This document shows positions 922-19,888 of a stretch of DNA of 24,382 bases, one piece after another. Each line of letters starts with the position of its first letter. The stretch's first letter is position 1. The stretch spans positions 1 to 24,382 of IMG/VR virus record IMGVR_UViG_3300002223_000028, one strand, 5' to 3'. Both the position numbers and the translations under genes were made by a program. Under the pieces are notes generated by a model. It was not told where the DNA came from. It was given only the letters and a program-made list of their open reading frames with translations, and made no database searches. Source of the stretch: a virus.

Positions 922-3900
922 TAGCTTGAATACTCCCAAACTATAATTATTCCGTCCGACCCCGCTCCGCCAGTCCTGTCTACAGTGCTATCCGCCCAAG
1001 CTCCGCCTCCTCCTGCTCCATAACCCGTGCCAGCGGTTCCATTGCCAACAGTCGCTCTTGAGTTTCCTCCACCCTGTCCTTGATACCCAGAAGCTCCAAA
1101 TCCCGTTACTGCGATAGTGCCCGAAACCCTATGACCGAATCCGCCTGCATTTCCTCTGCTGTTTAGGTCTCCATTGGTTGATACCGCTCCGCCATTTCCT
1201 CCTAAAACAGGGACAGCCGAAGTTCCAAGAGCTAAAGTAGCTCCGCCAACTCCGCCACCACAGGTAACAGTCGTTCCTCCTACTGTGAAAGTCGTGTTAT
1301 CGCCCGTACTGCCCCCATTCGCTCCCACTCCTCCAGCACCGCCAGCTCCAATCGCTACGGTATAGCCAGTGGAAGCCGTAACGGTAAATATCTTTTCTGC
1401 ATAAGAACCGCCTCCGCCTCCTCCGCCAATAGATATATTTCCAGCACTCGCATCTGCTCCACCGCCTCCACCGCCAGCTCCTATCATTTGGACGAAAATT
1501 CTGGTTACGCCTGCCGGACTGGTATAAGTTGTCGTTCCCTGCGTCAGTATCTGGCGAGACACCATCCTTCCTGATATTCCGCTAACAGTAGAATTAAATG
1601 TCGCTGCTCCATCAAACTGTGCCGCTCCGTCTATTTCCAAAGTTCCCAAAGCGTAGACATTGCCGACAGCGGATACCGAGAATTGCGGAGTGGTTGCTAC
1701 TTTGAAATTGATAAAGTTTCCGCTCAAAATTGCTCCGCCAGGACCGCCTACAGATACATCCACATCGAATAAATTAAACGCCAATGTGTTTGTTCCCGAC
1801 CCGCCTGCGGTATAAGTCAAATCCATATCTATCCAACTCCAAGTAGAAGTTGTGGTATTCGGGCCAGTTACTCCCGACAAATTAAGATTCACATCTATAT
1901 TATGAACAACGCTGGTATAAGTATTTCCGTTAGCGTAAACGATATTCTCATCATAAAGAAAAGGATTTATTGTTCCTCCGCCAGTGGGAATATCTATATC
2001 AAAGAAAAATATGTCGTTAGAAACATCATTGGCGTCAAAAGTAATTTTATCCAAGTCCATTACGATAGACCTGCCATTGGTGTAAATATCATCTAAAGTA
2101 GCATTCACGCTTAACACAGGAGTAGCATTTATAGTAAGTCCTGTCCCTATGTCCATAAACACAACTGCTCCTGCCGAGTCATCCCACATCATAATCTGGT
2201 CGTCATCAGGATCAGACAATGATGCTCCTGTCCCTCCATCTGCTAAAGACACATCTGTGCCACCTGCACGATAAATAGCATTACCCTCAATAGTTAAATC
2301 ACCAGCTCCACTTCTGGCCAAGGTAGTGTCAGTAGCGTGTCCGATATTTAATGCAGTGAATTGCGGAGAAGCATCTGTGGTAAGGTCTTGATTAACTAAT
2401 GAAGCGGATTCTACCGTTAAATCACCGCTTAGAGTGATAGTCCTGTCTGCGTCTCCTGGAACTAAAGTTAAAGTCCTTGTTGCGGTTAAATCAGAAGTAG
2501 TTGTTATTGTTAAATAGTGAGAAGCGTTAGAATCCTCTATAAGCAAATCCTCCGCTTGAAGATTACCTGCCAGAGTCAAAGTATCTGTTGCGTCATTATA
2601 AGTCATTCCTGCATCTCCTGCTGGATTATTAGCTCCGTCAAAGTATAAAACTTGGGTGTCTGTTCCGATAATAGAACCAGAACCAGCTGTAATCTGCCTA
2701 TAAACCAATACACTTCCCGCTTTTACAGTGGCTGTAACTCCATTGGTTTCAGGTCTAAATCTTAAAATAAATGTTCCCGAAGTAGCTCCATTTCTTAATA
2801 TGCCTTTAACTTGAGCAAAAGTATCAACATTAGCTGTGTCTATAGAAGCGCTATTAACCCCCGAATTATACGCTCTTGCCGAACCACTCGTTATTGCCGT
2901 TAATGATGTTGGAATAAACCTTTGTAAAACACTTGTGGTAAATCCAGCAGGGCCATTCACAGCAAATGCTATGCCCGAAGCCCCTGTTGAAGAACGAAAG
3001 ATAATATTAAACTCAAAGGTGTAATCAGTATTAGCCGCTGCGGCAAAAGAAAGTCCAGTTGCGTCAGCCAAAGTATTCACAGTTCTTGTTACATCAGAAC
3101 CAAGCACCACCATCACCTCTCCTGCCGTTCCGCTTCCTCCTCCTCCTGTGGCGGATATTGTAGTCCCAGACATAGCAAGACCTGTTCCGATAGTTATCTC
3201 TTGCCAATCACCTGCTCCAGAATCGCCTCGCCCTAAAAGTTTAGAAGCAGAACCAGAGGCGGTTAAGTTCGCATAAGGCAAATCGCCCGTTACTCCATTA
3301 GCCAGATTGACTTGTGCCCAAGCGGGATTATTACTTGCTCCTGTGTTAGATAAATATCTTGTAGCGGTCGCATCTTTGACAAGTAAAGCCAAAGCATCCG
3401 TTCCAGAACCATAAATCAAATCCCCTTGAACTAAAGCTCCTATGCCAGTTATGGCGGTAGAGTCCACTTTACTGGCGGTGGTTATAGTAGAAAGTTTAGA
3501 GTCGGCTATTGAACCTGCCAGCATAGCATTGGTTATACCAAGAGCTTTTACCTGTAAATTACCAGAGCCATCAAGTCCTATAGAACTATCATCTATGTTC
3601 ACGCCTACTTCATTTCCTGTTATTTCTAATCCGCCATTAGCCAATAAATCTAATCTAAAATCAGCTCCAAACAATTCCACTCCGCCAGAAGCGGTATAAG
3701 CAGTTAATGCTCCTAATTGGTCAAATACTATGGCAGTTGTTCCAACGGTAATCGTTCCCGCCGTAGTCATACTAAACAGCTTATTTCCGTTAACTGTTCC
3801 TGCCAAAACATTAAAGAATGTTCCTGTTATTATTTCAGCAGAGGTATCATATCTTGTAGTTCTGGTTAAGATATAAGGTAATCCTGCGTCTCCCACTTGG

Positions 3901-5909
3901 GTTAAAGTATATTCTCCGTTATTAGCTCCTGTAACTTCATCTTGAATCAAGTATTCATTATCAACAGCGGCGGCTACTCCATCTATTGTGCCAATAGAAC
4001 CATTAGCGTTTCCTGTTAAAGTGGCTCCTACACCAGACGCTCCATTATCATAGGTGTTAGCGGCTAAAGCAGCAGTAGTGGCGGCATTAACAGCACCTAC
4101 GAATCTTTGTCCTGTTCCCACCAAATTATCTACATATAATTTTCTTACCGCTTGATTATCTGCTGTGGGATTAGAACCTGGTAAAACAGGTATAGAACCG
4201 AATGTTTTAATTCCGTTAACTGTTTGGTCGCCTGTTAGATTAACAGTGTTTTCAGATAAGGCGATAGTTCCCGCTTGATTAGGTAAAGTAAAGATTCTCT
4301 CAGCTGTTAAGTTGTCAAAATTTAGAATTCCAGTGCCAACAGTATTTCCCATTGGCTGAAAGATAAATCTGCCGTGTATTCCTGAACCAGTAGCCAGTCC
4401 TACCGTAAGTTGGAAATCGCCACCATCACTATTACCTGCTTGGGCAGAACCCGCTTCAAGCTGTAGACCTCCTCCTGCTCCACTTGTAGCTCCCCCTTGT
4501 CCAGCACCTAAAGTTACACCTCCACCAACACCAGTAGCACCAGCAGTTCCGCCAAAAACAGAAAGAGAACCTCCTCCTCCTGTTCCAAAACCATTGCCCG
4601 TCTGAATAGTTAAGTTAGCTCCAGCACTATTACCTGATGTGGCAGAACCAGAAGTAATAGCAATAGCTGTGGGAGAAGCGGCATCGTTTGTAATCATAGA
4701 TGGCGTTATTATTCCACCTACAATACTCAAGACATTTGTTGTTTCATTATAAGTAAAGCCAGCATCTCCAGCAGGAGAACTACCAGCCATATAAAGAACT
4801 TGAGTATCAGAACCTATGGCTGGTAAATCAGCAGTAACTAAAGCCCTACCTGTATATTTAGAACCATCTGCTATAAAAACGTATCTATCAATATAAAATA
4901 AAGAGTCATCTACATCGTTTAAGGCGGGTAAAGTAGTGGCTCCACCTCCGCCACCAGCTCCTAATTGAGTTTCATTACCTGCGTCAGAAAGAAAGAAAAG
5001 AGCTGATTCGCCAAAGCCATCGTCTTTAACATAAGTATCACCTTTATTGGCGGCGGGAGTGGAAGGAGTAGAGATTTCTGTTTGCTCAATATATCCAGCT
5101 CCCATATCAAGATTATCTCCTGCTGTTTGGGGTGAGATAGTCGTACCTGTTCTGTTCCAAATAGATTCTGATGTTATTAACCCTTTAACCTCATCTATTT
5201 GACTCTGTAATCTTATGCTCGCCTCGCCAAAAGAGGTTATTATACCCCAATTAGGATTACTCTCTATTTCTTCAAATAACTCATCTTTTAATCCTTGTAA
5301 TTTAGAAGTATTTTTTAGTTCAACAACATTTAAGTTTTCTATTTTCTCTAATAAATCAACTCCATTCTTTTGTATTTCTAATATGTCTTGTTCTAATTCA
5401 TTAACTTTGTCAGAAATATCTTCTGGAATTTTTGGTATTTCGCTTTTGGTTATCTTTCTTATTTCTTTTTCTGATAAATGTGGTGCTTTTTTATGGTGTT
5501 CTTCCACTTTTTTATAGGCAATAGTTTCTGCAATCTTGGCAATATCTGGCGTTTCTTTTACTTCTTCATAAGAAATAGTTTTATCTTCTTCCACCCTTAA
5601 TTTTTCCGTCAATACTTCCAATTCTGCTCTAAATTCAGATAGCATTTCTTCCACTTGTTCTCTTGGTATTAAAACAGATGGTCTTTGACTTTCCTTGATT
5701 TTAGTTTCTTTGACCAGTTTTCCTGCTTCTTGATAATCCGTCAAAGTAAATCCTTTTTCTTCTAATATCTTTATCTTCAAAGCTAAAACCAATTCCTCAA
5801 ATTCTTGTGAAGTAATATCTATTCCTTCTTCTAATGCTTCTTTTTCTGCTTGTTTAATAAGCTGGTTAAGAAGTTTTTTAAGTTTTAGGTATTGTTGTTT
5901 TGAAATCAT
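921..5909 (-). CDS. giant modular tail fibre with polyglycine adhesin tip
   Basis: This is the largest gene (about 1662 aa from the ATG at 5909; a TTG nine bases upstream is in frame but less likely). Residues 1-230 are charged and alpha-helical, probably a coiled coil attaching the fibre to the virion. The rest is Gly/Thr/Ser/Ala-rich beta structure. Around 558-600 it has TGDQTVNGIKTFGS...AVRKLYVDN, a common trimeric tail-fibre element. Around 933-1076 lies a compact beta-sandwich-like block. A motif beginning GTDTQVLY occurs near 368 and again near 1083. Residues from about 1454 form a glycine-rich C-terminal domain with runs of six or seven glycines, ending GIIIVWEYSS. It resembles the polyglycine-helix adhesin tips of some tail fibres, so this is probably the receptor-binding end. 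The ATG overlaps the preceding stop (ATGA). Confidence 0.85.
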   Translation of the reverse strand: MISKQQYLKLKKLLNQLIKQAEKEALEEGIDITSQEFEELVLALKIKILEEKGFTLTDYQEAGKLVKETKIKESQRPSVLIPREQVEEMLSEFRAELEVLTEKLRVEEDKTISYEEVKETPDIAKIAETIAYKKVEEHHKKAPHLSEKEIRKITKSEIPKIPEDISDKVNELEQDILEIQKNGVDLLEKIENLNVVELKNTSKLQGLKDELFEEIESNPNWGIITSFGEASIRLQSQIDEVKGLITSESIWNRTGTTISPQTAGDNLDMGAGYIEQTEISTPSTPAANKGDTYVKDDGFGESALFFLSDAGNETQLGAGGGGGATTLPALNDVDDSLFYIDRYVFIADGSKYTGRALVTADLPAIGSDTQVLYMAGSSPAGDAGFTYNETTNVLSIVGGIITPSMITNDAASPTAIAITSGSATSGNSAGANLTIQTGNGFGTGGGGSLSVFGGTAGATGVGGGVTLGAGQGGATSGAGGGLQLEAGSAQAGNSDGGDFQLTVGLATGSGIHGRFIFQPMGNTVGTGILNFDNLTAERIFTLPNQAGTIALSENTVNLTGDQTVNGIKTFGSIPVLPGSNPTADNQAVRKLYVDNLVGTGQRFVGAVNAATTAALAANTYDNGASGVGATLTGNANGSIGTIDGVAAAVDNEYLIQDEVTGANNGEYTLTQVGDAGLPYILTRTTRYDTSAEIITGTFFNVLAGTVNGNKLFSMTTAGTITVGTTAIVFDQLGALTAYTASGGVELFGADFRLDLLANGGLEITGNEVGVNIDDSSIGLDGSGNLQVKALGITNAMLAGSIADSKLSTITTASKVDSTAITGIGALVQGDLIYGSGTDALALLVKDATATRYLSNTGASNNPAWAQVNLANGVTGDLPYANLTASGSASKLLGRGDSGAGDWQEITIGTGLAMSGTTISATGGGGSGTAGEVMVVLGSDVTRTVNTLADATGLSFAAAANTDYTFEFNIIFRSSTGASGIAFAVNGPAGFTTSVLQRFIPTSLTAITSGSARAYNSGVNSASIDTANVDTFAQVKGILRNGATSGTFILRFRPETNGVTATVKAGSVLVYRQITAGSGSIIGTDTQVLYFDGANNPAGDAGMTYNDATDTLTLAGNLQAEDLLIEDSNASHYLTITTTSDLTATRTLTLVPGDADRTITLSGDLTVESASLVNQDLTTDASPQFTALNIGHATDTTLARSGAGDLTIEGNAIYRAGGTDVSLADGGTGASLSDPDDDQIMMWDDSAGAVVFMDIGTGLTINATPVLSVNATLDDIYTNGRSIVMDLDKITFDANDVSNDIFFFDIDIPTGGGTINPFLYDENIVYANGNTYTSVVHNIDVNLNLSGVTGPNTTTSTWSWIDMDLTYTAGGSGTNTLAFNLFDVDVSVGGPGGAILSGNFINFKVATTPQFSVSAVGNVYALGTLEIDGAAQFDGAATFNSTVSGISGRMVSRQILTQGTTTYTSPAGVTRIFVQMIGAGGGGGGADASAGNISIGGGGGGGSYAEKIFTVTASTGYTVAIGAGGAGGVGANGGSTGDNTTFTVGGTTVTCGGGVGGATLALGTSAVPVLGGNGGAVSTNGDLNSRGNAGGFGHRVSGTIAVTGFGASGYQGQGGGNSRATVGNGTAGTGYGAGGGGAWADSTVDRTGGAGSDGIIIVWEYSS
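2576..2670 (-). repeat. tail-fibre internal repeat, copy 2
   Basis: It encodes GTDTQVLYFDGANNPAGDAG and then MTYNDATDTLTLAG. It is clearly related at protein level, and partly at DNA level, to the copy at 4725-4815 in the same gene. Confidence 0.6.
4725..4815 (-). repeat. tail-fibre internal repeat, copy 1
   Basis: It encodes GSDTQVLYMAGSSPAGDAG and then FTYNETTNVLSIVGG, the same module as at 2576-2670. The pattern (Q)VLYxxGxxPAGDAGxTYN is conserved, suggesting a duplicated structural unit of the fibre. Confidence 0.6.
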
Positions 5910-6037
5910 AATTCGCAATTATTATCATAAACATAATCATATCCACAAATTTGAACTGGAGAATTAACATAATAAGAAACTGAAAATATAATTAAAAATA
6001 ATATTCCCCAAGTTAGTGTTGTTTCTAAAATTCTCAT
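5906..6037 (-). CDS. 43-aa single-pass membrane protein
   Basis: The small ORF starts with an ATG overlapping the TGA of the 655-aa gene and ends with a TGA overlapping the ATG of the tail-fibre gene, both as ATGA. It exactly fills the gap. Residues 9-25 (TWGILFLIIFSVSYYVN region) form one hydrophobic helix after a short N-terminus. The C-terminal tail is short, with two cysteines and several tyrosines and acidic residues (ICGYDYVYDNNCEL). Perfect coupling on both sides is the main support. I do not recognise the family; a holin-like or virion membrane role is possible but not shown. Confidence 0.6.
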   Translation of the reverse strand: MRILETTLTWGILFLIIFSVSYYVNSPVQICGYDYVYDNNCEL

Positions 6038-8001
6038 AATGATAAATATTTACCAGTTTTCTTTTTATCTTGTTGATATGTTTGCACTCCTATGCCAAAA
6101 GCTCCTAATGCAGAAAGCGGTAATAAATCTGGATTATATTTTGACATATCAATGGCATCTTGAATAACCATAGGAATAAATCGTTGAGCTACTTCATTTT
6201 GAATATTAACTGGTTGCCCAATAAAATCTTGTCCCTTTAATAAAGTTGTAATAAAAGAAAATATAGGTGCTTCCTTTGCTTCTATTTGACGAGTTAATAT
6301 ATCTAATCTTGTTAAGGGTTTATATCCTTCTCCTAAAGTAATTTCTTTGCCAGTAGTAGAACTTACATATTTCCCACTTATAAGTTGTGATGCACTTCTG
6401 ATATATTGTTGAAATCCAGCACCAACATCAATTCTTGTTGGTCCTATTTTTATTTTTGCAAAATCAGAACTATTAGAATCTTCTCCGACTTTTGCTCCTG
6501 CTAATTTAGCTGTTGCCAAGATCCCACCAACCAACCCAGTAAAAGCTAATAAAGACTTGAATGCTTGTTTCCTTACAAATGGAGGTTGTTGAACATAATA
6601 AATAGGATTCATCAAGTTTAAACGAGAGGTTGCTAACTTCGGAGAAAAGAAAAAACTATTCAAAACGATAGACGACCTCTCTAGTGCCTTTGGCAATTTT
6701 CCTCTACCAGTAGCATTGTTAACAAACTCTGCTATGCTTTTTGTTAAATCTCTATTTTCCATTGGATTCAATCCAGCCTTATCTGCGTTCTTAACCATAG
6801 ATTGGAAAATATCCATTCTAAATTTATTGGCGAATCCAGTATAAGCCCTTCCACTTGCTCTCACTACTTTTCCTATTGCGGGTATTCTTTCGGCTAAATT
6901 TGATTGGAATTGTTCTTCTCTTTGAGATAAACTCATTCCCAAATCCGTGAAAGAAAGACCACTCTCCTTCGCCAAGTCAAACAAAGGATTCTTTTTAATA
7001 ACATCCTGATTTATTTGATATATTTTTTCGCTGCTTAAATTAGAAAATTGTTGTCTAAAAGAACTTATAAATTCTTTTGGAAAAGAAGGTGCGGCAAACC
7101 AACCTTGTCTACCGCCAAAAGAAAGGTCAGTAGACGACATAATAGAACGAGGAACATTCGCTAATTCAATTCCTAAATCTTTAATCTTTTGCAACAATGG
7201 TCTTTTTTCTAAAAGAGTTTGAGTAAATTCTTTTGGAAATACCTTATTTAATAAATCTAATTCTCCTTTTGTTGGAATTGTTCCACCTGTTTCTCCGAAT
7301 AATTTAGATAATCCAGTTCGTGCAGAAAATGTTTCTAAGTAAGAAAGTCTAGGACTGCTAGTTATTTCATCAAATAAATTATCTACATTTTCTTGGTTAA
7401 TTTTTCCCTTTAATGATTCAAATTGAACCTTAGGTAAATCTCCTTTTAGTTTAGATAATTCAGCAAAAAACCCTGCCTGTCCTTTGGTTTGTTGTCCTAT
7501 CCCTTTTGCTGCTGCAAATCTTTTTGCTCTCTCTGCTGTGTATAATGTTTCTTGAGTTCCCCTTATGGGTTTTGTTTCTTTTAATGCTTGAATAACCTTT
7601 TCAACAGGGGTTAAGCTTTCTGTTATTTTTACTACATTTTTAACTGGTTTCTTAATTGGAGAAATAAATCCTATTGTAATATTAGCAACATCATCTAAAT
7701 GAGATTGAGCTAATTCTTTTAACCCAAGAGGACTTGGTTGTTTCTTAATATCATTCATTAAATAAAGATGGAATGCTTGTTGCTTAGTATCTTGAGAAAC
7801 TCCACTACTAGCCAATAATCTCTCCCTTTCTGTTGGAAGATTAGTATATTCACCAATAAAATCTTGTATCCCACTTGAAATTTTATCTATTGTTGCATCA
7901 AAAACATTTTTCTGTGGAGTTTGTCTTATAACTTGTCCTGAAAAATTAGAAGGATTATTTAATTTCAATTTCTCTAAATTTTGTAAAGATAGAATTGCCA
8001 T
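6034..8001 (-). CDS. 655-aa helical virion protein, internal/ejected-protein-like
   Basis: The protein is long and mostly helical, Lys-, Ser- and Phe-rich. Its only obvious hydrophobic stretch is about residues 480-500 (FTGLVGGILATAKLAGA region). I see no lytic transglycosylase signature and no convincing catalytic motif. Its position after the nozzle candidate and before the tail fibre matches that of large internal core proteins in T7-like phages. The middle part, with conserved-looking NSFFFSPKLATSRLNLMNP, also recalls C-terminal domains of large phage polyvalent proteins. The ATG follows the previous stop by one base (TAA-T-ATG). The role as an ejected or virion-core protein is inferred from size, composition and order. 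Confidence 0.6.
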   Translation of the reverse strand: MAILSLQNLEKLKLNNPSNFSGQVIRQTPQKNVFDATIDKISSGIQDFIGEYTNLPTERERLLASSGVSQDTKQQAFHLYLMNDIKKQPSPLGLKELAQSHLDDVANITIGFISPIKKPVKNVVKITESLTPVEKVIQALKETKPIRGTQETLYTAERAKRFAAAKGIGQQTKGQAGFFAELSKLKGDLPKVQFESLKGKINQENVDNLFDEITSSPRLSYLETFSARTGLSKLFGETGGTIPTKGELDLLNKVFPKEFTQTLLEKRPLLQKIKDLGIELANVPRSIMSSTDLSFGGRQGWFAAPSFPKEFISSFRQQFSNLSSEKIYQINQDVIKKNPLFDLAKESGLSFTDLGMSLSQREEQFQSNLAERIPAIGKVVRASGRAYTGFANKFRMDIFQSMVKNADKAGLNPMENRDLTKSIAEFVNNATGRGKLPKALERSSIVLNSFFFSPKLATSRLNLMNPIYYVQQPPFVRKQAFKSLLAFTGLVGGILATAKLAGAKVGEDSNSSDFAKIKIGPTRIDVGAGFQQYIRSASQLISGKYVSSTTGKEITLGEGYKPLTRLDILTRQIEAKEAPIFSFITTLLKGQDFIGQPVNIQNEVAQRFIPMVIQDAIDMSKYNPDLLPLSALGAFGIGVQTYQQDKKKTGKYLSL

Positions 8002-10995: not shown

Positions 10996-12051
10996 TTAAT
11001 TATCTAACCTAATGTATAATGTTTTAGAATCACCATCTGAAACGCTCGATGGAGTGATTGTAGCTGGTGGAGTTCCTGCGGTTACTGTTACCGTGCCTTC
11101 TAAAATTGGTTCTGAAGTTACTCCTGCTTTTAATGGCTCACTCGTGGCTGCTGTCCAAGTAAAAACACCTAAATTTGTAGTACTTACCGTAACAAAGAAT
11201 ACATAATATACTCCTGCTGTAACCTCAACAGAAGAAACTGCCGTAGTAACAACGCTGTCCCCAGATATACTTGCTGTAGTAACATCAATTACTTTAGTTT
11301 GCCCATCTTCTGAATAAAGACCTACCTTACAAGTTCCAGCCACATTTATAGATTGAGCCCAAAAAGATATTTTATTTACTGTTATACTATTGGGAACAAC
11401 AATCTGTCCTACTTTCATAATCGTATTATCAGCGGCATTTGCTAAAACACTTAATGATGCAGTATTTATAAAATTAGGTCGTGGGATTAGAGTAACAGCC
11501 GCAGGAGCAGTAGCTTGATCAACAAAACTTAATACAGCAGACCCATTAGTCTTAATAACCTGACCATTAGTACCATCTGCATTAGGAAGTTGCAAAAGAG
11601 CAGTTCCTACCTTTACCTTTCCTGTTCCTTTCGCTTTTATATCTAAAGAAATATCAGTATCATCTCCTGTCGCAGATATAGATGGACTTCCTGAAATCGC
11701 TGCATTAACTAAAGTAACCTCATTTATAGCACCTCCTGTGGCGGTAATTTTTACGAGTTCATTTCCGTTCGTGTCTAAAATAGATGTTCCTATTTTGGGA
11801 CTTGTTAATGTTTTAGCGGTAAGAGTTTCTGTTCCTGTTTTAGAAACAGCTTTATCTGTACCCGTAACTCCACTTAATTTATAATCGTGTGAAGTAGTTA
11901 CCGCAGAACTATCAATGCCAACTTTTGCTTCTATTGCTTCAGCAATATCGTTTATATTAGTATGTTGAGCAGAATGAGAAGGACTGGTTACTGGGTCAGT
12001 AGCCGCAGGATTAGTTAATGCATCTAAACTTGTCGGAAAATTTGAAGCCAT
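10996..12051 (-). CDS. fibre-like virion protein with beta-sandwich C-terminal domain
   Basis: The 351-aa product opens with MASNFPTSLDALTNP followed by SHSAQHTNINDIAEAIEAKVG, an N-terminal block I associate with minor structural and fibre proteins of many environmental phages. The middle (TGTETLTAKTLTSPKIGTSIL, SPSISATGDDTDISLDIKAKGTGKVKVG) is a repetitive beta fibre segment. Residues from about 185 form a jelly-roll-like domain with a C-terminal Thr/Pro-rich stretch. It is probably a virion decoration or short fibre, perhaps carrying a binding domain. Receptor specificity cannot be read. A 27-base AT-rich spacer separates it from the 51-aa gene upstream. Confidence 0.65.
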   Translation of the reverse strand: MASNFPTSLDALTNPAATDPVTSPSHSAQHTNINDIAEAIEAKVGIDSSAVTTSHDYKLSGVTGTDKAVSKTGTETLTAKTLTSPKIGTSILDTNGNELVKITATGGAINEVTLVNAAISGSPSISATGDDTDISLDIKAKGTGKVKVGTALLQLPNADGTNGQVIKTNGSAVLSFVDQATAPAAVTLIPRPNFINTASLSVLANAADNTIMKVGQIVVPNSITVNKISFWAQSINVAGTCKVGLYSEDGQTKVIDVTTASISGDSVVTTAVSSVEVTAGVYYVFFVTVSTTNLGVFTWTAATSEPLKAGVTSEPILEGTVTVTAGTPPATITPSSVSDGDSKTLYIRLDN

Positions 12052-12237: not shown

Positions 12238-12966
12238 TTATATTGGGTTTTTTATATTAGGACGTATTCTTACCCTCATATCCACATTTCTTTTTGTCGC
12301 CCAATCTTTAATTTGCTGTTCGTATTGGTTAATAACTAATAGTATTTTCTCTGCCTTTACGTTATCTAAATTTCTTGCTATCGCATAATCCATTGCCCCA
12401 CCATAAGCCAAATAAGGGTGTAAAGACAACTGTATTCCTGGTTCTTTGGTAGTATCACTATCTACAAACTGGTCTATATCTCTTGCTAAATAAAGTTTTA
12501 ATCCTAAAGCAGTTGTAACGCCAGTAGTTGCTGGTTTTGGATATAAAAACAAAGAGTTTCCAATAATATCGTAATATCTTGGCGTTCCCGATGTTTCGTA
12601 GTATTCCGTTAGGGCAGAACCTTGTATCTGGGCTTTGTCAAACTGGGTTACAAGTAGATAATTATTATTTTGGTCTAATACCTCTACTCTTTGGATATCT
12701 AAAGAATTTGTAGGCAATTCATAATCTTGTTGCTCTGCTACTAAAGTAGTTGTGGCGATTGGCAGAGTAGTGTAATTCTTGTCATCAAACTCCCAAGTAG
12801 TAGAACTTTTCCATATTAAAAATACTAATTTTCTTAACCAAGAATTAGCTGACCTCGTAAAATCAGCGATAGGAAAAGAAGTTGTATCAGCACTATCTAA
12901 TCCTAAAAGGAAAATTGTGTAGTGATATAAGCTATTTTGTTTATTTGTAGTATCGTTTAATACCAT
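12238..12966 (-). CDS. head-tail adaptor (tail tubular A / gp4-like)
   Basis: The 242-aa product is a mixed alpha/beta protein. An early block with Trp residues (NSWLRKLVFLIWKSSTTWEFDD) is followed by a middle of beta strands (QDYELPTNSLDIQRVEVLD, GTPRYYDIIGNSLFLYPKP) and then a helical C-terminus (HPYLAYGGAMDYAIARN...EKILLVINQYEQQIKDWATKR). The pairing DYxLPxxxxxIxxVxV with YYDIIGNSLxLYPxP is typical of phage adaptor proteins that dock onto the portal ring. In ordinary short-tailed phages this gene directly follows the capsid gene. Here about 6 kb of glycan-related genes intervene. Confidence 0.72.
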   Translation of the reverse strand: MVLNDTTNKQNSLYHYTIFLLGLDSADTTSFPIADFTRSANSWLRKLVFLIWKSSTTWEFDDKNYTTLPIATTTLVAEQQDYELPTNSLDIQRVEVLDQNNNYLLVTQFDKAQIQGSALTEYYETSGTPRYYDIIGNSLFLYPKPATTGVTTALGLKLYLARDIDQFVDSDTTKEPGIQLSLHPYLAYGGAMDYAIARNLDNVKAEKILLVINQYEQQIKDWATKRNVDMRVRIRPNIKNPI

Positions 12967-12967
12967 A

Positions 12968-14308
12968 TTATTTTCTAATGCAGTGCCAATTCCAATGTTT
13001 ATCCATATTAGAACTGCCTAATTCTTCTATGACCTTTATTGTAAAATACTTTTCTATTAAGTTTTTAACCTCTTTTGCTGAACCTCCGCATTTTTCAATA
13101 TAAGCTGGGTAGTACTCAAACATCATTTCCAGTTCGGGATTACTTTCAAATGTCTTTATTAGCCCTCTTAATACCTGTGGCTCTGAACCATCTACATCTA
13201 TTTTTATAAAATTTATTTTGTCTAATATTCCTAAATCTTCAAACACCTCATCCGCAGTAATTGCCTGACACTCAAACTTCTTATCTATTGGTGGCATTTT
13301 TACTTTTTCTTTTTTATCCCACGCTGCCATTTCTAATAATGTTGTCCTGTCTGAATATCCATTTATCTCTATGTTTTTTTTAAGATAAGGAAATTGATTT
13401 GGTGTTGGCTCAAAAGCTATAACTTTTCCTTTTTCTCCAACTTGTCTTGCTAATAAATTAGTAAAATATCCTATACTTGCTCCAATATCTACTGCTATTT
13501 GCCCTTCTTTAACTCTATTTTTAACAATAGCTGATGTTATTGGCTCCCAAGTTCTCTCTATATTTCCAAAGTTCTGCATCACTGATTTCATTCCTTCATC
13601 TGCGTCTTCTGGCATTGAAAAACTATGCCCGTCCATCTCAACATATCCTTTATCTTTATTTATCTGTTCTTTCAATTTTCTGTTTTCTTCCAATGCTCCA
13701 TATAAAGTTGCATAATATGTTCTAACATTTAACCTTTTCCAGTGGTCGCACACATAATCAAGATTAGCAAATATCTTAAATCCTTTTTCTTTTGCTCTTC
13801 TGCTAAACGCTATATCTAAACCGAATACTCTAATTCCATCTGCGTCATACTCATTTAAGAAAGGTGCTTTTACTACTTCTAAAACCCTACGGGATAACAT
13901 TATACAACCAGTTCCCACTGCGTCTACTTCTATAATTCCTTCTTTGTCGTCTAATAAAATAGGTGAATACATACCCTCTGATTTTCTTTCAAATACCACT
14001 GGAGCTGGTATTCCATCTCTATACATAAAGCAGAGAGCGGCAATGACATCTTTTTGATAATCAGCCATATTTATTACTGATGGCGGAGCTACAATATCAG
14101 AATCAATCATAAGAAGATAATCATATCCTTTTGCTAAAAACTTTTGCACAATCATATTCCTATTATGAGAAATTGGTTGTTCATTAAAATACTCAACCTC
14201 AACATCATAATCGGGACTATTCTTCATATAATGCAAACTATCAGATAATTTGGTTTCTATTTCTCCCTGATTTAATACCGCACACAAAATACTCTTTTTT
14301 TGACTCAT
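12968..14308 (-). CDS. GT2-like glycosyltransferase fused to FkbM methyltransferase
   Basis: The product is 446 aa in two domains. Residues 1-215 are GT-A/GT2-like: ILCAVLNQGEI at the start, a metal-binding DSD at 69-71 within YLLMIDSDIVAP, and a candidate base region LDIAFSRRAKEKG at 164-176. Residues about 245-446 are an FkbM-type SAM methyltransferase: the SAM loop VDIGASIGYF at 273-282, AFEPTPNQFPYLKKN at 298-312 and IKIDVDGSEPQVLRG at 368-382. One polypeptide could therefore transfer a sugar and methylate a hydroxyl of the same glycan. Its start overlaps the preceding stop as ATGA. It is the last cassette gene before the adaptor. Domain calls are strong; the acceptor is unknown. Confidence 0.85.
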   Translation of the reverse strand: MSQKKSILCAVLNQGEIETKLSDSLHYMKNSPDYDVEVEYFNEQPISHNRNMIVQKFLAKGYDYLLMIDSDIVAPPSVINMADYQKDVIAALCFMYRDGIPAPVVFERKSEGMYSPILLDDKEGIIEVDAVGTGCIMLSRRVLEVVKAPFLNEYDADGIRVFGLDIAFSRRAKEKGFKIFANLDYVCDHWKRLNVRTYYATLYGALEENRKLKEQINKDKGYVEMDGHSFSMPEDADEGMKSVMQNFGNIERTWEPITSAIVKNRVKEGQIAVDIGASIGYFTNLLARQVGEKGKVIAFEPTPNQFPYLKKNIEINGYSDRTTLLEMAAWDKKEKVKMPPIDKKFECQAITADEVFEDLGILDKINFIKIDVDGSEPQVLRGLIKTFESNPELEMMFEYYPAYIEKCGGSAKEVKNLIEKYFTIKVIEELGSSNMDKHWNWHCIRK

Positions 14309-15114
14309 ACTTCTTCACTTAAATTATTAAAATTATATTCTTTTCCTGTTTTCTTTTTAATTCCAAATTGCTCTAAAATAATACTTTTTGGTTCTTCATA
14401 AAATATCTCTCCCTGTGCAAACAGATGTTCAAATGTAGTTGAGATATTATGGTCGTGAACTACTACACAATACTTACTACCCCCCATTTCTTTTTCTTTA
14501 AACACTATTGGCACAAATTCGTGGCTTTTAACTAATCTAATAAACTCAAAATGCTTACTCGGATTTAGAAATGTTTCATTTTTCATCATTATCGTATGAA
14601 ATGGTGGATGAGTTGTGGGTTTCCAATAAGCCAATCTATCTTGAGTATAACTATAAATATATCCTTGCCTGTGAGTTAATGCCGTTCCTTCTTTAAACTC
14701 TTCTTTGTTAATATTTTCTATAACATCTTTCGCATACATATCGTCAGAAGCAAGATTTACTAATTTTACATTCTTTCTTCCTACCAACTCTTTTAATTCT
14801 GGCAATATATTATTTAATCTTTTTAAAAGTCCTTCGTTCTCGGTTTCTGCATACTTATCGTCCCAAAATGCTATTCCTCCAAAAGTGAATATATGCGGAA
14901 GTGGTATTTTAATCGTTTTAACTAACGGATTATCTCTTTCTTCTGGTCTAAATTGACACCATATTACAAAGTTTTTATCTCTTTGATTAAGAAGTGATTT
15001 TAAAGTAAATTTATGAAACAACTCTATTCTGTTTTTAAACCATTCATCTCCTCTGTAATTTGGTTTTCCTAAACCAGTAAATGGAATAAATAAAATTGTA
15101 ATTTCTTTTTTCAT
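14305..15114 (-). CDS. glycosyltransferase, rhamnosyltransferase-like
   Basis: The 269-aa product has an N-terminal stretch with RIELFHKFTLKSLLNQRDKNF (residues 29-49) and an SDDMY motif at 123-127 that would be the DxD-like metal and nucleotide-sugar site. This arrangement (FTLxSLxxQxDxxF, then a conserved acidic pair about 80 residues later) is typical of a phage and bacterial family annotated as putative rhamnosyltransferases. The sugar donor is uncertain. It is coupled to the HAD gene upstream and to the GT2-FkbM gene downstream by ATGA overlaps, so it belongs to the same cassette. No membrane segment is seen. Confidence 0.72.
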   Translation of the reverse strand: MKKEITILFIPFTGLGKPNYRGDEWFKNRIELFHKFTLKSLLNQRDKNFVIWCQFRPEERDNPLVKTIKIPLPHIFTFGGIAFWDDKYAETENEGLLKRLNNILPELKELVGRKNVKLVNLASDDMYAKDVIENINKEEFKEGTALTHRQGYIYSYTQDRLAYWKPTTHPPFHTIMMKNETFLNPSKHFEFIRLVKSHEFVPIVFKEKEMGGSKYCVVVHDHNISTTFEHLFAQGEIFYEEPKSIILEQFGIKKKTGKEYNFNNLSEEV

Positions 15115-15386
15115 AAATACGAAGTTAAATCATTCCAGCCATTAAAGCGAATCGCTCTATCGTCAAAATACATTGTCGCCGGCGGTTTTTTGTAAAGTTC
15201 ATAACCTATCCTATACTTTCTCAACCATTGCTTTGTCCCTGCGAAATCCTTACAAGCAGTCATTAAAATAATTTTATGCCCCTTGCTTTCTATCCATTCT
15301 AAAGCTGGAATTGCATTATCGTTGAGTTCACCAAAATGATTCCTAATAATACCATCAACATCTATTGCTACGGTCATTTGTTTCAT
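15111..15386 (-). CDS. minimal HAD-superfamily phosphatase
   Basis: At only 91 aa the product has all four HAD motifs: motif I DVDG at 9-12 (nucleophile D9, acid/base D11), motif II Thr at 43 in ILMTA, motif III Lys at about 66-67, and motif IV DD at 75-76 in MYFDDRAI. It lacks a cap domain, as in the smallest HAD phosphatases acting on sugar or nucleotide phosphates. ATG 15386 overlaps the ATP-grasp stop (ATGA). HAD and ATP-grasp genes are often adjacent in bacterial surface-polysaccharide clusters, which suggests a precursor-processing role here. The substrate is not determinable from the sequence. Confidence 0.8.
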   Translation of the reverse strand: MKQMTVAIDVDGIIRNHFGELNDNAIPALEWIESKGHKIILMTACKDFAGTKQWLRKYRIGYELYKKPPATMYFDDRAIRFNGWNDLTSYL

Positions 15387-16327
15387 TTTATAACTTCATG
15401 ATTTTTATCAATTATAATCCCAGACCAATACCTTAAAAGAGTCAATCCATATTCTAATTTTACTTTAACTTTTTCTCCCATTAACATCTTTATCATTAGG
15501 TCTGGCATATTTAATCCTGACGCTACGGCTAATGGCAATCCACCAGAAGGAAATCTATTATTTATATCTATACAATAAGTTCCTTTTTTATTTCTAATAA
15601 ACTGGATGTTCCAACAACCAACCATTTCAAATTTCTCTGCTATTTTCTTAGACAAATCTGATAATTCCTTATCTTTGATTGTTCTTCCTTTGGTGCATAA
15701 TCCTCCTTTCGCCTCTATTCTCGTTATTGGTAATGTTGCTATAACTTTTCCTTTCAAATCCGACAATCCGTCAATGGTATATTCCTGCCCCTCTATAAAC
15801 TCACTTGCAAACATTCTTTCCTTATCCTTAAAGTGAAACTCTAATTCTTCCTGATTATTGACTCTATGAGTATTCTTCGTTCCAGTACTTGATATTGGTT
15901 TTACTATTGCTGGAAACTTGACTTTCTTATCAAATAGCTTCGGTGCATATATGCCCATTTCCTTCAATACCTTTGAGCAAATCACTTTGTTTTCCGTCAA
16001 AATATACACTTCTTGTCTTGATAGACACATTCTTAATCCTAATTCCTTAAAACCTTCGGTAAATTCGGATAGGGCAAGAATATCAGCAGAGTGAGTTGGT
16101 ATTATAATGTCAATCTTTTCAAACTTGCATACCTGCATTACCGCAGGTATAAACCCAACATCACTGGCTTTGGGAAAAATATACCTTCTTTTAGTCATAT
16201 ATAATCCTACTGATAACTCATCTGCATCTCCTGAAATAAGGTTATATCCCTTTCCTTCAAGAGCTTTTAATACATTCATTCCATTTGTCCCTCCAGCACC
16301 CGTGATTAGAACATTCAATTTAGGCAT
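15383..16327 (-). CDS. ATP-grasp ligase (carbamoyl-phosphate-synthase-like)
   Basis: From the ATG at 16327 the product is 314 aa: an N-terminal Rossmann-like pre-ATP-grasp domain (NVLITGAGGTNGMNVLKAL, residues 5-23), then an ATP-grasp fold with IVKP (K143), an EFIEGQE loop at 177-182 and a metal-binding DINNRF at 254-259. Ligases of this type join a carboxylate to an amine, and some act in glycan or peptide modification. An in-frame ATG at 16369 would overlap the GNAT gene by 50 bases. I prefer 16327 because GGAAGAGG precedes it at suitable spacing and MPKLNVLITG is a normal family start. The overlap is 8 bases. Confidence 0.82.
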   Translation of the reverse strand: MPKLNVLITGAGGTNGMNVLKALEGKGYNLISGDADELSVGLYMTKRRYIFPKASDVGFIPAVMQVCKFEKIDIIIPTHSADILALSEFTEGFKELGLRMCLSRQEVYILTENKVICSKVLKEMGIYAPKLFDKKVKFPAIVKPISSTGTKNTHRVNNQEELEFHFKDKERMFASEFIEGQEYTIDGLSDLKGKVIATLPITRIEAKGGLCTKGRTIKDKELSDLSKKIAEKFEMVGCWNIQFIRNKKGTYCIDINNRFPSGGLPLAVASGLNMPDLMIKMLMGEKVKVKLEYGLTLLRYWSGIIIDKNHEVIK

Positions 16328-16697
16328 TTTTGGGTCTACCTCTCTTCCTTGGTGTTTTGATTTCTTCATTTTTGATTTCTTCTTTACTTATTTCTTTTTT
16401 GTCAATATCTAACACCCATTTATCACCAACATTATTTGCCTCATTTAACTTAATAAATCCCGAAGCTACTAAGAATTTACCAAATACTTCCGTATCGGGA
16501 TTAGTGCTTGAAAAAGTAATAATCTTCTTAAGTCCCTTACTTTTAGATATCTCTATCAGTTCAGAAAACATTTCAGAACCTAATCCTTTTTCTCTTAATC
16601 CTTTATCAACAAATATCTGACTTAATTCCATTGCCTCTCCATCAATATCACTTGGCAAATAACTAAGAAATCCACCATTTTTCTCAATTTTCTCCAT
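16320..16697 (-). CDS. GNAT acetyltransferase with C-terminal AT-hook-like tail
   Basis: The 125-aa product has the acetyl-CoA pyrophosphate loop of GNAT enzymes: IFVDKGLREKGLGSEMF (28-44), with R35-x-x-G38-L-G40, then a helix and the NPDTEVFGKFLVASGFIKL strand-helix of the C-terminal GNAT motif. Residues 100-115 are a charged linker rich in Lys and Glu. The end, PRKRGRPK (116-123), matches the core of an AT-hook, a short minor-groove DNA-binding motif. The start overlaps the HNH gene by 14 bases and is preceded by GAGGGGGC. The acetyl acceptor could be an amino sugar, given the context, or a DNA-associated protein, given the tail. Confidence 0.8.
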   Translation of the reverse strand: MEKIEKNGGFLSYLPSDIDGEAMELSQIFVDKGLREKGLGSEMFSELIEISKSKGLKKIITFSSTNPDTEVFGKFLVASGFIKLNEANNVGDKWVLDIDKKEISKEEIKNEEIKTPRKRGRPKNA

Positions 16698-17202
16698 AAT
16701 TTTGTGCCCCCTCTTTATTTTGATTACGACCTTTTTGATGAATTTTTATATGACAACCCCTACATAGGGTCAATCCATTATCTACAATAAATCTTAATTC
16801 TGGAAATTCTGAAAATAATTTTATATGATGTGCGACAATCTCTTTCTTTTGACAATGTTTTTTGCATAATCTACAAATCCATCTATCTCTCCTATAAACT
16901 TCATCTCTCCAAATTTGCCATTCTAAACTATGCCTTATTCTTTCATTCTCTAAATTTATACCTCCTTTCCAATTCCAATGATTTGAACCTCCCAAGTGCA
17001 ATTTTCCCTTGTTCCAGCCCTTAATATTATCAAGATTTTTTGGTTTTTTACCTTTTAGGGCTTTGCTAATCTTTCTTTTGTGTTCTTCTGAAAGTTTCTG
17101 TCCCTTTTTTGTATTACTTCCCTTAATACCATACCTTAACACTCTCTCGTCTTTTTCCTTATTCAGTCCTTTATTCCAAGGTGTATTCCCTTTTTTAGGC
17201 AT
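16684..17202 (-). CDS. NUMOD3/HNH homing-type endonuclease
   Basis: The 172-aa product has N-terminal DNA-binding modules: PWNKGLN near 9-14, LSEEHKRKISKALKGKKP at 37-54 (NUMOD3 signature), WNKGK and HWNWKGG at 75-81. A treble-clef HNH nuclease follows: CRLC at 110-113, AHHI at 124-127, and DNGLTLCRGCHIKIH at 141-155, with two Cys pairs for zinc. It is complete, with all key residues present. It shares one base with the preceding stop (TAATG) and overlaps the GNAT gene, so it is integrated in the operon. Free-standing endonucleases of this kind move with neighbouring genes and may have mobilised part of the cassette. Confidence 0.9.
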   Translation of the reverse strand: MPKKGNTPWNKGLNKEKDERVLRYGIKGSNTKKGQKLSEEHKRKISKALKGKKPKNLDNIKGWNKGKLHLGGSNHWNWKGGINLENERIRHSLEWQIWRDEVYRRDRWICRLCKKHCQKKEIVAHHIKLFSEFPELRFIVDNGLTLCRGCHIKIHQKGRNQNKEGAQNYGEN

Positions 17203-18068
17203 TATTGTTTAGGTGTCCAATAATTAGGAGAACACCAAGGAAATTGATTCAATTTACTCAGATAATACGACCTTGCTATTAGATTAGGTTCTTTTTGGTT
17301 TTTTAATCTTTTCAACTGCTCAATCAATTCTTCTGCCGAATCATAATTCCATACATTAGGATATTTAATACGAGTTATTGGATAACCTCCGTTTAGAAGA
17401 CTTTTCACCATTACTTCTGATGCTCCATCGTGTTCATTTGTCCTTAATCCGCATTGATATTGTGCTATTTCTCTGTTAAATTGTTCTGGCGATACTTTCC
17501 CGTGTCTAATTATGTTTGACTTATATGTGTCTATTTCGTTTAAAGTATCTAATAATCTTGGATTATCTGTTTTATCCACTCCATAAAGATGAAAAGTAAA
17601 TTCTGGTAATTGTTCCGCCAACCAATCAACTAAATCCCAACCATATTCTCCTTCTCGCTTCTGATGTCCACATAAGAATATATGTGGTTCTTTTGACGGC
17701 TTAAATGAAACTGGAAAATCATAAACGCTTTCAAGAAAAGAAGGACAAACTCCAATAACCTTTACTCCGCATCTCTCTAAATTAACTTTCTCTACTTCGT
17801 TCTCACACCAATGCTCTGTGTCTGAAAATAACTTTAGTATTCTTCTGGACTCATAATTCTGCGTAAGATTAAGAATATCAGAGCCACACCAGAATACCGT
17901 TTTCTTGCCTTTGTGTATTTTGAAAGTATCATAATCATTTCTTGTATAAAGACCGAAAAATAATACATCTTGGTCTGGGTCATCTAATCCGTGCCAATCT
18001 TCCATTCCCCAAGTTTTCTTGGCTTTTTCATTAAACGAAATTACCGACAAAGAAGTACGTAGCCTCAT
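17202..18068 (-). CDS. GT-B-like glycosyltransferase
   Basis: The 288-aa product has the C-terminal domain layout of family 1/4-type glycosyltransferases: a strand start at HIFLCGHQKREGEYG (129-143), then FTFHLYGVD (158-166), NIIRHGKVSPEQFNREIAQY (185-204) and the nucleotide-sugar signature EHDGASEVMVKSLLNGGYPI (212-231), with two glutamates, E212 and E218, near the usual E-x7-E spacing. The N-terminal half is a shortened acceptor domain. Four cysteines may mean nothing. Its ATG overlaps the CgeB-like gene's stop. The target sugar and acceptor are unknown; soluble cytoplasmic action is likely, since no membrane helix is seen. Confidence 0.8.
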   Translation of the reverse strand: MRLRTSLSVISFNEKAKKTWGMEDWHGLDDPDQDVLFFGLYTRNDYDTFKIHKGKKTVFWCGSDILNLTQNYESRRILKLFSDTEHWCENEVEKVNLERCGVKVIGVCPSFLESVYDFPVSFKPSKEPHIFLCGHQKREGEYGWDLVDWLAEQLPEFTFHLYGVDKTDNPRLLDTLNEIDTYKSNIIRHGKVSPEQFNREIAQYQCGLRTNEHDGASEVMVKSLLNGGYPITRIKYPNVWNYDSAEELIEQLKRLKNQKEPNLIARSYYLSKLNQFPWCSPNYWTPKQ

Positions 18069-18949
18069 TTTATTCTTTTCATTATTTCTTTAATTCTTTC
18101 TTCATAACTAAACCTTTGAATAAACTTATATCCTTGTTCTTTTATTTTTTCTCTTTCCTCTGGATTATTAAGGTAATGGTCAATAATCCCTCTTAATTGA
18201 TGAACCATCTTATACCCTAAATAATGTTCTCCAGCAATAAATCCTTCTTCTTTTAATCCTTCAAACATAGGGAATAAAGCCAATCCTCTGTGATTTAATA
18301 TCTGATAAATTCTATCATCCCAATAAAACTCTTCATAAGGTTGAACAGGAGTGAAAATCATCTTTGCCGAAGCTATTAAATCTGCTAAATCTTGACCAAT
18401 AAGAGTAGGAAATACTTTGAATCTTGCTCCATATTCTGATTTCAGGAACTCGATATATGGCTTATTAAACCCATAAATCTCTCCATAAAACGCAAGATCA
18501 CAAGCGTATTCTTTTTTTGGCAATCCTTTTAAGGCAGAGCCAGTGGCTAAATGTAACGGAAAAACATTATCGTACTTATGTCTTCTAACCCAAGTGTCGT
18601 CATTCAAGAAAACATAATCAATCAAAGGTATTGTTTCTTCCATTGTTTTATCATTAAGAAACCAAACCTTATCTGTGAACCAACAAACCTTTTTGCAGGT
18701 TATTGCGGTAAGTATTTGTTTTAATCTTTCAACAGAAACAGGATAATTCATTTCAGTATCAGTATGGACCCCTCCTTGATGAAATAAGAATAAATCTACT
18801 TTCTTGGCTTTCTTTAATAAATCCGCCATATCAAAATCTCTGTCATTGACACTCTCTACTTTATATTTAGTTTTCAAAGTTCTTTCTATCTCTTTCGTGA
18901 ACGCATATTGCGGTTCAGAAAAGTCAGCAAAATAAACTATGTTTTTCAT
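18065..18949 (-). CDS. CgeB-like glycosyltransferase
   Basis: The 294-aa protein has a Rossmann-like N-terminus (KNIVYFADFSEPQYAF). The middle has VDLFLFHQGG and DYVFLNDDTWV, then DLAFYGEIYGFNKPYIEFL (151-169). The C-terminus, FYWDDRIYQILNHRGLALFP (208-227) and YLNNPEEREKIKEQGYKFI (259-277), is the hallmark of CgeB-type glycosyl transferases first described in spore-coat modification. The ATG at 18949 opens the cassette directly after the structured element that follows the capsid gene. No Shine-Dalgarno is obvious, and the 3' arm of the stem lies within a few bases of the start codon, so initiation may depend on the RNA fold. Confidence 0.8.
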   Translation of the reverse strand: MKNIVYFADFSEPQYAFTKEIERTLKTKYKVESVNDRDFDMADLLKKAKKVDLFLFHQGGVHTDTEMNYPVSVERLKQILTAITCKKVCWFTDKVWFLNDKTMEETIPLIDYVFLNDDTWVRRHKYDNVFPLHLATGSALKGLPKKEYACDLAFYGEIYGFNKPYIEFLKSEYGARFKVFPTLIGQDLADLIASAKMIFTPVQPYEEFYWDDRIYQILNHRGLALFPMFEGLKEEGFIAGEHYLGYKMVHQLRGIIDHYLNNPEEREKIKEQGYKFIQRFSYEERIKEIMKRIK

Positions 18950-18953
18950 TTTA

Positions 18954-19004
18954 TCGTTCTCATACGCCTCGGGGAAAAGCGTATGATTCTCTCCCCGAGA
19001 ACGA
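18954..19004 (-). ncRNA. structured RNA element between capsid gene and glycan cassette
   Basis: Three sets of perfect complements overlap here. An outer stem pairs 18997-19004 with 18954-18961 (8 bp). An inner stem pairs 18979-18985 with 18961-18967 (7 bp, CATACGC/GCGTATG). A third pairs 18993-18999 with 18968-18974 (7 bp, CTCGGGG/CCCCGAG). The second and third interleave; the inner hairpin loop CCCC can pair with GGGG upstream as a pseudoknot within the outer stem. There is no U-run, so it is not a standard terminator. It may slow or process the transcript, or control initiation of the next gene, whose ATG lies five bases away. Confidence 0.55.
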
Positions 19005-19024
19005 CATTAATTAGTAATGTTACT

Positions 19025-19888
19025 CTATTTTGGCATTGCGTAGGCTTTTACTCCTGCGGTAGTATCAAGAATCTTGACACCGTAGGCAAAGTCCCCAACA
19101 AGCCTGCTGTACAACCCATCTCCTTTGATAAGTTGTATTCTTGGCCCCGAAGCCATACCGTCAATGTTCGCAAACGCATACGCCATCGCTCTTTTATGGA
19201 TTAAGAAGTTTGTCTCCTTAATTCCAATAATTTGCGTTGGCACTTGCGTAGTAACGGTGACAGGAACGCCAAACAATGTAACCAGTTTCCCAGTTGTCAT
19301 TGGAGCACGCCCACCCCCGAACATACTTGCGTCAAAGATAGCATTTCTTCTCATTAAGTCCCAATAGGACTTAGGGCCCATAATCCAGATAACATCCTCT
19401 CTGGGTATGCTATAAGAGTCAAGGACTTGCATAGCATCTCGAGCTTTTGTTGTACTCATAGAGCCAGAATCTCCAACTCTTAATATAAGACCATCTCTTG
19501 CGGCTTCTAACAAAGCAGTATCAAACTTCTTTGCTAAGCTATTAGCGATGGCTTCGGTATATGCTTTCTGGACATTGTACTTGTTGGCAATCTGCGCCAT
19601 TGAGAAATCGGTAAATCTCAAAGACCACGCATCCCAAGTTCCCACGACCAATTTTGTTCTTGTGTCAGCGACATATCGGTCTGTCAGCGCACCAGTTGTA
19701 ATGGTAACACTTGAAGGAGCTGCTAATTCTCCCAATGCTGGGATATAAATAGATTCTCCTCCTGTAGCCACATCATCTGAAAAATCAGTGAAGTGAGCTG
19801 CGGCGACCAATTTCACCTTAAAGAACATCTTGATATAGTCCGAGAAAATATCGGGTTGCCAACTTCTATGTGAAGGATTTGCTGCCAT
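19025..19888 (-). CDS. major capsid protein
   Basis: The 287-aa product lies directly downstream of the acidic scaffold-like gene. Its character fits a HK97-fold coat protein: an N-terminal arm, then VATGGESIYIPALGEL, TITTGALTDRYVADTRTKLVVG, a long spine helix (AQIANKYNVQKAYTEAIANSLAKKFDTALLEAARDG region) and DVIWIMGPKSYWDLMRR, with strands returning to end in YGVKILDTTAGVKAYAMP. The last motif, VKxxxTxAGVxAxAMP, is typical of coat proteins of this class. The GC content and codon use look somewhat higher than in the cassette genes, as expected for a highly expressed gene. Assignment rests on sequence character and gene order. Confidence 0.82.
   Translation of the reverse strand: MAANPSHRSWQPDIFSDYIKMFFKVKLVAAAHFTDFSDDVATGGESIYIPALGELAAPSSVTITTGALTDRYVADTRTKLVVGTWDAWSLRFTDFSMAQIANKYNVQKAYTEAIANSLAKKFDTALLEAARDGLILRVGDSGSMSTTKARDAMQVLDSYSIPREDVIWIMGPKSYWDLMRRNAIFDASMFGGGRAPMTTGKLVTLFGVPVTVTTQVPTQIIGIKETNFLIHKRAMAYAFANIDGMASGPRIQLIKGDGLYSRLVGDFAYGVKILDTTAGVKAYAMPK

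Follow-up and report, generated by a model that had tools for sequence, protein, structure and literature searches.

The window, i.e., the whole stretch of DNA analysed here, is the IMG/VR virus record IMGVR_UViG_3300002223_000028 (24,382 bp), and the ORF list and family searches place all of its main genes on the minus strand (Table 1). Between the major capsid protein (MCP) gene and the gene for an SU10-like adaptor lies a block of eight genes, with precisely the coordinates and gene count given in the original prediction. Seven of the eight are of glycan type: four glycosyltransferases (GTs), one of them fused to an FkbM methyltransferase, together with ATP-grasp, GNAT and HAD-like proteins. 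The earlier list of three GTs and a GT2-FkbM fusion partner thus becomes four GTs, and the description of the block as a sugar-building set holds for these seven genes but fails for the remaining one, which encodes an HNH endonuclease.

Table 1. Features of the window, with the basis for each assignment
Feature	Position	Strand	Basis or remark
TerL	24051-22726	-	window
Portal	22451-20730	-	window
Scaffold-like	20500-19901	-	window
MCP, upstream flank of slot	19025-19888	-	phrog_267 major head protein 9.1e-16
Gap between MCP and cassette, 75 bp	18950-19024	-	sole gap >1 bp within MCP-cassette-adaptor
Eight-gene block	12968-18949	-	between MCP and SU10-like adaptor
GTB1, GT-B type glycosyltransferase, cassette gene 1	18065-18949	-	Pfam Glyco_trans_1_2 8.8e-11, above cut-off
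GTB2, predicted GT-B glycosyltransferase	17202-18068	-	AlphaFold2 and Foldseek
HNH endonuclease with NUMOD3 motif	16684-17202	-	phrog_119 HNH 1.8e-15; NUMOD3 above cut-off; AHH...N...CxxCH
Short GNAT-like acyltransferase, 125 aa	16320-16697	-	Acetyltransf_1 2.5e-6, above cut-off
ATP-grasp ligase, PylC/carbamoyl-phosphate-synthase-like (PRK12767 type)	15383-16369	-	ATPgrasp_Ter 4.8e-20; PylC-like_N 1.4e-9
Small HAD-like phosphatase (weak assignment)	15111-15386	-	phrog_1238 7.1e-14; DVDG and DDRAIRF motifs
RhaT, predicted GT-A-like glycosyltransferase	14305-15114	-	Rhamno_transf 5.3e-5, just above cut-off
GT2-FkbM fusion (GT2 domain and FkbM methyltransferase domain)	12968-14308	-	TIGR01444 fkbM 5.6e-23; phrog glycosyltransferase 5.9e-10
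SU10-like adaptor, downstream flank	12238-12966	-	Pfam SU10_adaptor 3.0e-11; 1 bp past cassette end
Ser/Thr-rich (25%) protein, 351 aa, just after adaptor	10996-12051	-	composition; candidate acceptor

In relatives, GTB1 is likewise first or nearly first after the MCP. GTB2 has no Pfam family match, and it is its AlphaFold2 model (pLDDT 86, pTM 0.82) that identifies it as a GT-B glycosyltransferase, with SenB as the best Foldseek match (1.6e-10) and further matches to the GT-B enzymes SdgB, TarM and GtfA, of which SdgB and GtfA are protein-glycosylating. RhaT is predicted to be a GT-A-like glycosyltransferase; its AlphaFold2 model (pLDDT 85) gave weak GT-A-like matches (TM about 0.4), and residues S123-D124 are invariant, with D125 nearly so. 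In the GT2-FkbM fusion, for which a Pfam search also returned FkbM (1.8e-14), the GT2 domain covers residues 1-215 and carries a DxD motif at 69-71 that is retained in 38 of 42 GT2 homologues, and the FkbM motif VDIGASIG lies at 273. Most relatives have the GT2 domain alone, without FkbM, as the last gene before the adaptor.

The earlier ATP-grasp, HAD and GNAT calls were all recovered, the HAD assignment only weakly and the GNAT as a short protein. The ATP-grasp ligase matches NCBIfam PRK12767 at 8.2e-56, under the equivalog cut-off, and PDB entry 2pn1 at 3.7e-20. For the HAD-like protein, which has no Pfam match, the D-DG and DDRAIRF motifs are conserved at 45% identity in the relative L003. 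Homologues of the GNAT-like protein are present in the slots of G004, G007-9 and L056; given its short length, a role as a full acetyltransferase was set aside. An AT-hook-like basic tail, RKRGRPK, ends this protein. The HNH/NUMOD3 gene is probably a homing-type mobile insert outside the glycan pathway, and it is missing from G003, G006, most relatives and L003, the relative whose MCP is 73% identical.

The cassette genes overlap by 1-50 bp, the last one stopping 1 bp before the adaptor, and a terminator scan found no minus-strand terminator-like site within the block or in the gap between MCP and cassette. Because of this tight packing and the lack of a terminator-like site on that strand, the cassette is probably co-transcribed with the flanking virion genes. 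A promoter scan returned as many promoter-like sites as in shuffled sequences. The protein encoded just after the adaptor has the highest Ser/Thr content in the window and no family match in the searches, and its composition makes it a candidate glycan acceptor; beyond it lie more virion-type genes and a 1,665-aa fibre gene.

The slot of L003 contains the same GTs at 54-61% identity. Along with HNH it is without GNAT, it adds a Gfo/Idh oxidoreductase and a Methyltransf_24 protein that are both absent from the window, its GT2 has no FkbM domain, and its RhaT is fused to a different methyltransferase domain. Across further contigs the order is MCP, GTB1, GTB2, a variable middle, RhaT, GT2 and adaptor, where the middle comprises UDP-glucose/GDP-mannose dehydrogenase, methyltransferases, ATP-grasp or GNAT and is empty in L065 (3.3 kb); in G010, a DegT aminotransferase adjoins RhaT. 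In all relatives of this cassette type with both flanks, the GT set lies at the junction and is neither scattered nor early. L008, retrieved via GTB2, proved to be a different phage and was discarded as a relative. In other phage groups, GTB2 and RhaT with a methyltransferase are encoded just upstream of the terminase genes.

A census of the junction was obtained from an IMG/VR scan with an alignment of the adaptor only, so that loci were not picked by slot content; it comprises the best 80 of 157 loci by similarity, and is biased to nearer relatives, of which 69 had the MCP in view and 59 remained after 90% dereplication. Among these 59 contigs (best 80 of 157 loci), with family labels from iterative profiles built here that may over-reach and with GTG17_9 a broad GT-B group, at least one glycan-type gene lies between MCP and adaptor in 51 and none in 8, at least three in 37, and at least one GT in 49. 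A GT is the first gene after the MCP in 35 of the 49, the last before the adaptor in 25 and at either end in 44, small ORFs and HNH genes being ignored in these end-gene counts (best 80 of 157 loci). The slots vary from empty (78 bp) up to 12.5 kb, with single-glycosyltransferase slots in between. One GT stands between MCP and adaptor in the minimal alleles L121, L155, L169, L172, L175 and L187; Pfam gave a GT match for five of these, in most cases weak and in part under the curated cut-off, and none for L172. The expectation that such phages go straight from capsid to adaptor therefore applies to the 8 of 59 adaptor-keyed contigs and to the isolate MW202577.1, which have no glycan gene there, and not to the others. 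The virus records are fragments, and absences outside the slot carry little weight; one relative, G013, is complete (38.6 kb, 26-bp end overlap). Among 50,697 isolate phage records there was no MCP or GTB2 relative, and the only match was a distant portal in MW202577.1.

An adaptor tree of 67 contigs, which include contigs found via cassette genes and MW202577.1, was rooted at its midpoint. The window belongs to a 45-row clade in which no slot was scored empty, all 8 empty-scored rows falling among the other 22. Slot content clusters on this tree yet needs 17 changes, versus 27 in shuffles. The simplest history, with a direction that follows from the midpoint root, would begin with a slot that was empty or contained a single GT and that later expanded and was re-stocked repeatedly. 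The cassettes have their end genes in common, and tailoring enzymes are exchanged between phages. This arrangement recurs in dozens of independent contigs and is not chance, and the comparison of relatives at the junction speaks for a slot reserved for glycan genes and linked to the virion genes.

The chemistry encoded in the slot extends further in relatives. Six dereplicated contigs have a slot of 8.5-12.5 kb with a PEP mutase, a split phosphonopyruvate decarboxylase, and cytidylyltransferase-like and LicD proteins; these phosphonate genes belong to the relatives, and the window is without them. The two PEP mutases scanned match Pfam PEP_mutase at 3.1e-35 and 4.2e-45, the EDKx5NS motif is intact in 10 of 10 recorded homologues (eight from the slot lineage and two from large phages), and the NCBIfam score of 214 is under the model's equivalog cut-off of 319.6. 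The phosphonopyruvate decarboxylase is encoded as two adjacent half-proteins with TIGR03297 as their best match (9.9e-20 and 9.5e-15), each half spanning part of the model and falling under its whole-protein cut-off. One set of contigs (G015 and L108, with L109 a near-copy) adds a GDP-mannose dehydratase and a DegT aminotransferase, and a second (G017 and L110-L112) adds an M28-type hydrolase as well as NeuA-like and NeuB-like proteins, some of its members also encoding an Fe-alcohol dehydrogenase or a B12-radical SAM protein; L107 has the second set too, with its MCP out of view. An adaptor tree places the first set within contigs of the GTB1/GTB2 type, and the chemistry was therefore exchanged in place. 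Taken together, the gene content of some relatives predicts a complete-looking phosphonate route.

Several observations lie beside this prediction. The label PPDb in G010, G013 and the L068-L094 group was partly transketolase (confirmed for G013 by a Pfam scan) and was not counted among the phosphonate genes. In L078-L094 and G013, transketolase-like halves, DegT and SDR genes are located just upstream of the terminase genes. G015 (IMGVR_UViG_3300009285_001589; L045/L046) encodes a GroES (Cpn10, 8.3e-14) at 14986-15291 (numbered on the reverse orientation of the record), inside the cassette and next to the phosphonate genes. The larger phage contigs L114 and L115 (138 and 145 kb) carry PEP mutase, phosphonopyruvate decarboxylase and Fe-alcohol dehydrogenase among other sugar genes. 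In the literature searched, no phage PEP mutase was described from a virion operon, and a likely PEP mutase has been reported in a glycoconjugate region of archaeal Borg elements (PMC12660748).

The explanation we lean towards, at slightly better than even confidence, is that the window carries one allele of a modular slot whose genes serve soluble glycosylation of the virion itself. The slot would sit in the late (virion) operon of a phage lineage with an SU10-like adaptor, where cytosolic enzymes (ATP-grasp, HAD, GNAT and methyltransferase) would assemble a nucleotide-linked sugar or a short glycan and tailor it, and the four GTs would attach it stepwise to a virion protein during particle making, with the capsid, the adaptor, or nearby Ser/Thr-rich or fibre proteins as possible acceptors. 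The capsid-proximal GTB1 and the adaptor-proximal GT2 would be constant and the middle genes swapped between phages, such that related phages would display different coats. We infer this pathway, the virion as its target and any benefit, which could be an altered surface, shielding or changed adsorption.

Across 19 contigs, none of the 184 cassette proteins is a multi-pass membrane protein (at least two TM-like segments), leaving no flippase or polymerase candidate, and one weak TM-like segment was found in 11 of the 184, several of these being TPP enzymes. Because no multi-pass membrane protein is encoded, the cassette products are expected to act in the cytosol, where virions assemble; and since soluble GTs are encoded between the capsid and adaptor genes, glycosylation of virion proteins in the cytosol provides the best explanation. 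The presence of GT genes inside the virion gene cluster is also a property of phage virion glycosylation systems. No acceptor site for the glycan could be predicted. Counted against the virion reading are other phage groups in which two of the GTs have homologues immediately upstream of terminase and in the same orientation as it, although this location does not look like an early region. In G013, the terminase genes are directly preceded by sugar-supply genes (split transketolase, CapD-like and DegT); therefore supply of the donor and its transfer may be encoded in separate parts of the late region.

The original prediction had left the choice between glycosylated virion proteins and late remodelling of the host surface. 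Under the latter, a host lipid carrier and export would place the glycan on the cell, blocking superinfection or the sticking of progeny to debris, and we regard this as doubtful while still a serious contender. Its gene families do resemble O-antigen and capsule loci, FkbM, LicD, NeuB and UDP-glucose dehydrogenase being typical of cell-surface polysaccharide loci, and the phage could borrow lipid carriers and flippases from its host, so that missing export genes are compatible with a surface glycan. Moreover, pelagimyophages encode GTs in a hypervariable island amid their structural genes, and the authors of that study read them as modifying the host O-chain (PMC7029224). However, the 19 cassettes, with no multi-pass membrane protein, offer no GtrA/GtrB-like, Wzx or Wzy candidate, the slot between capsid and adaptor suggests late expression and is a poor fit to early superinfection exclusion, and the single-GT alleles would need to work alone. 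Serotype conversion of the gtrABC or oac type would pair a GT with a membrane flippase and a bactoprenol-linked or membrane acyltransferase, for which there is no candidate among the 184 cassette proteins. As no membrane export machinery is encoded, modification of the virion is preferred over that of the host surface, and the original interpretation is partly supported.

That the slot is no more than an insertion hot spot, tolerated, held open by homing endonucleases and filled with morons of no common function, is quite unlikely. The window, G004, G015, G016 and G017 do have HNH, NUMOD3 or LAGLIDADG-like genes within the slot or next to it, but random cargo would vary, whereas the contents are nearly all glycan enzymes with retained catalytic motifs, and the end genes are constant across adaptors only 38-50% identical. 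Glycosylation of phage DNA, as in T4-like phages, is a frequent role of phage GTs (mentioned in PMC12619734 and PMC7029224) but is very improbable here, as the GT genes are among virion rather than replication genes and ten of the larger non-structural genes of G013 include no hydroxymethylase or thymidylate-synthase-like enzyme, MT-A70 being the sole DNA-base enzyme seen.

Phage glycosyltransferases are commonly interpreted as enzymes of DNA modification or serotype conversion. With whole, interchangeable sugar pathways at a constant position between two virion genes, and no genes for export among them, glycosylation of the virion is the simplest interpretation here, and the pattern suggests that in some phages the surface of the particle is diversified much as capsules are in bacteria. 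A broader proposal, which we hold tentatively and consider possible yet unlikely, is a small-phage lineage with exchangeable "glycotype" cassettes that make their own virion glycan from scratch, including phosphonate- and nonulosonate-type glycans in some members, such that the slot would be the virus-particle counterpart of a bacterial capsule or O-antigen locus. Virion-linked glycosylation by phages is already known, and the predicted phosphonoglycan version is the newest part; if the phosphonate route is true, viruses would join the sources of surface phosphonates, and such a pathway would be unusual for a virus.

Among known systems, chlorovirus PBCV-1, a eukaryotic virus, decorates its capsid with its own GTs and sugar-nucleotide enzymes; the slot resembles it in its virus-encoded GTs and sugar enzymes and differs in that the capsid is unrelated and the PBCV-1 genes are dispersed. 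Mycobacteriophages use one or few GTs and host sugar donors, unlike the four GTs and donor-building or tailoring enzymes found here in an operon at a fixed junction, with chemistry exchanged between relatives. Their capsid and tail-tube subunits carry glycans added by phage-encoded glycosyltransferases (Freeman et al. 2023, as cited in PMC12619734), and it is phage-encoded GTs that the two systems share, the glycan being a predicted one here. The host recognition cluster of pelagimyophages is likewise a hypervariable structural-region island with several glycosyltransferases and LPS-type sugar enzymes (PMC7029224). Those phages are large T4-like myophages with an island between VrlC and neck gp14 that contains tail fibres (PMC7029224), whereas the lineage studied here has a small genome (38.6 kb in the complete relative), an MCP/adaptor slot of almost only glycan enzymes and a fibre gene elsewhere. 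Finally, G015, G017 and L107-L112 resemble bacterial pnt clusters, for which phosphonate decoration of surface glycans was proposed, in having a PEP mutase with a nearby cytidylyltransferase-like and a LicD-type gene (PMC6697681); they differ in that these genes, absent from the window, stand in a phage virion gene cluster and have predicted activity.

Hints on the host come from several sources. Nine TerL sequences searched against a genome collection yielded a single close match, in L051, a contig from a Candidatus Paceibacterota MAG (3,555 bp, coverage 2.25) whose TerL at 2980-3552 is 68% identical to that of the window. Paceibacterota was set aside as a weak host candidate, given a single low-coverage and possibly mis-binned contig and no other TerL match in 379 sampled Candidatus Paceibacterota genomes. 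Over 370 starts from the window and relatives, the Shine-Dalgarno signal is almost absent (GGAG in 2.4% versus 2.0% in shuffles), and the region upstream is A-rich, with A at -3 and -6 and T at -1; this context fits hosts not relying on Shine-Dalgarno and does not identify one. G013 carries a gene of the SLT transglycosylase type, which suggests a host with peptidoglycan. Further insertions were observed among the relatives: the 797-aa TerL of L033 (G006; 3512-5905) has a large internal insertion resembling an intein with endonuclease, the capsid gene of L049 (G016; 5621-7268) is apparently split by a LAGLIDADG-like ORF, and LAGLIDADG-like ORFs lie just before the MCP in G004 and G015.
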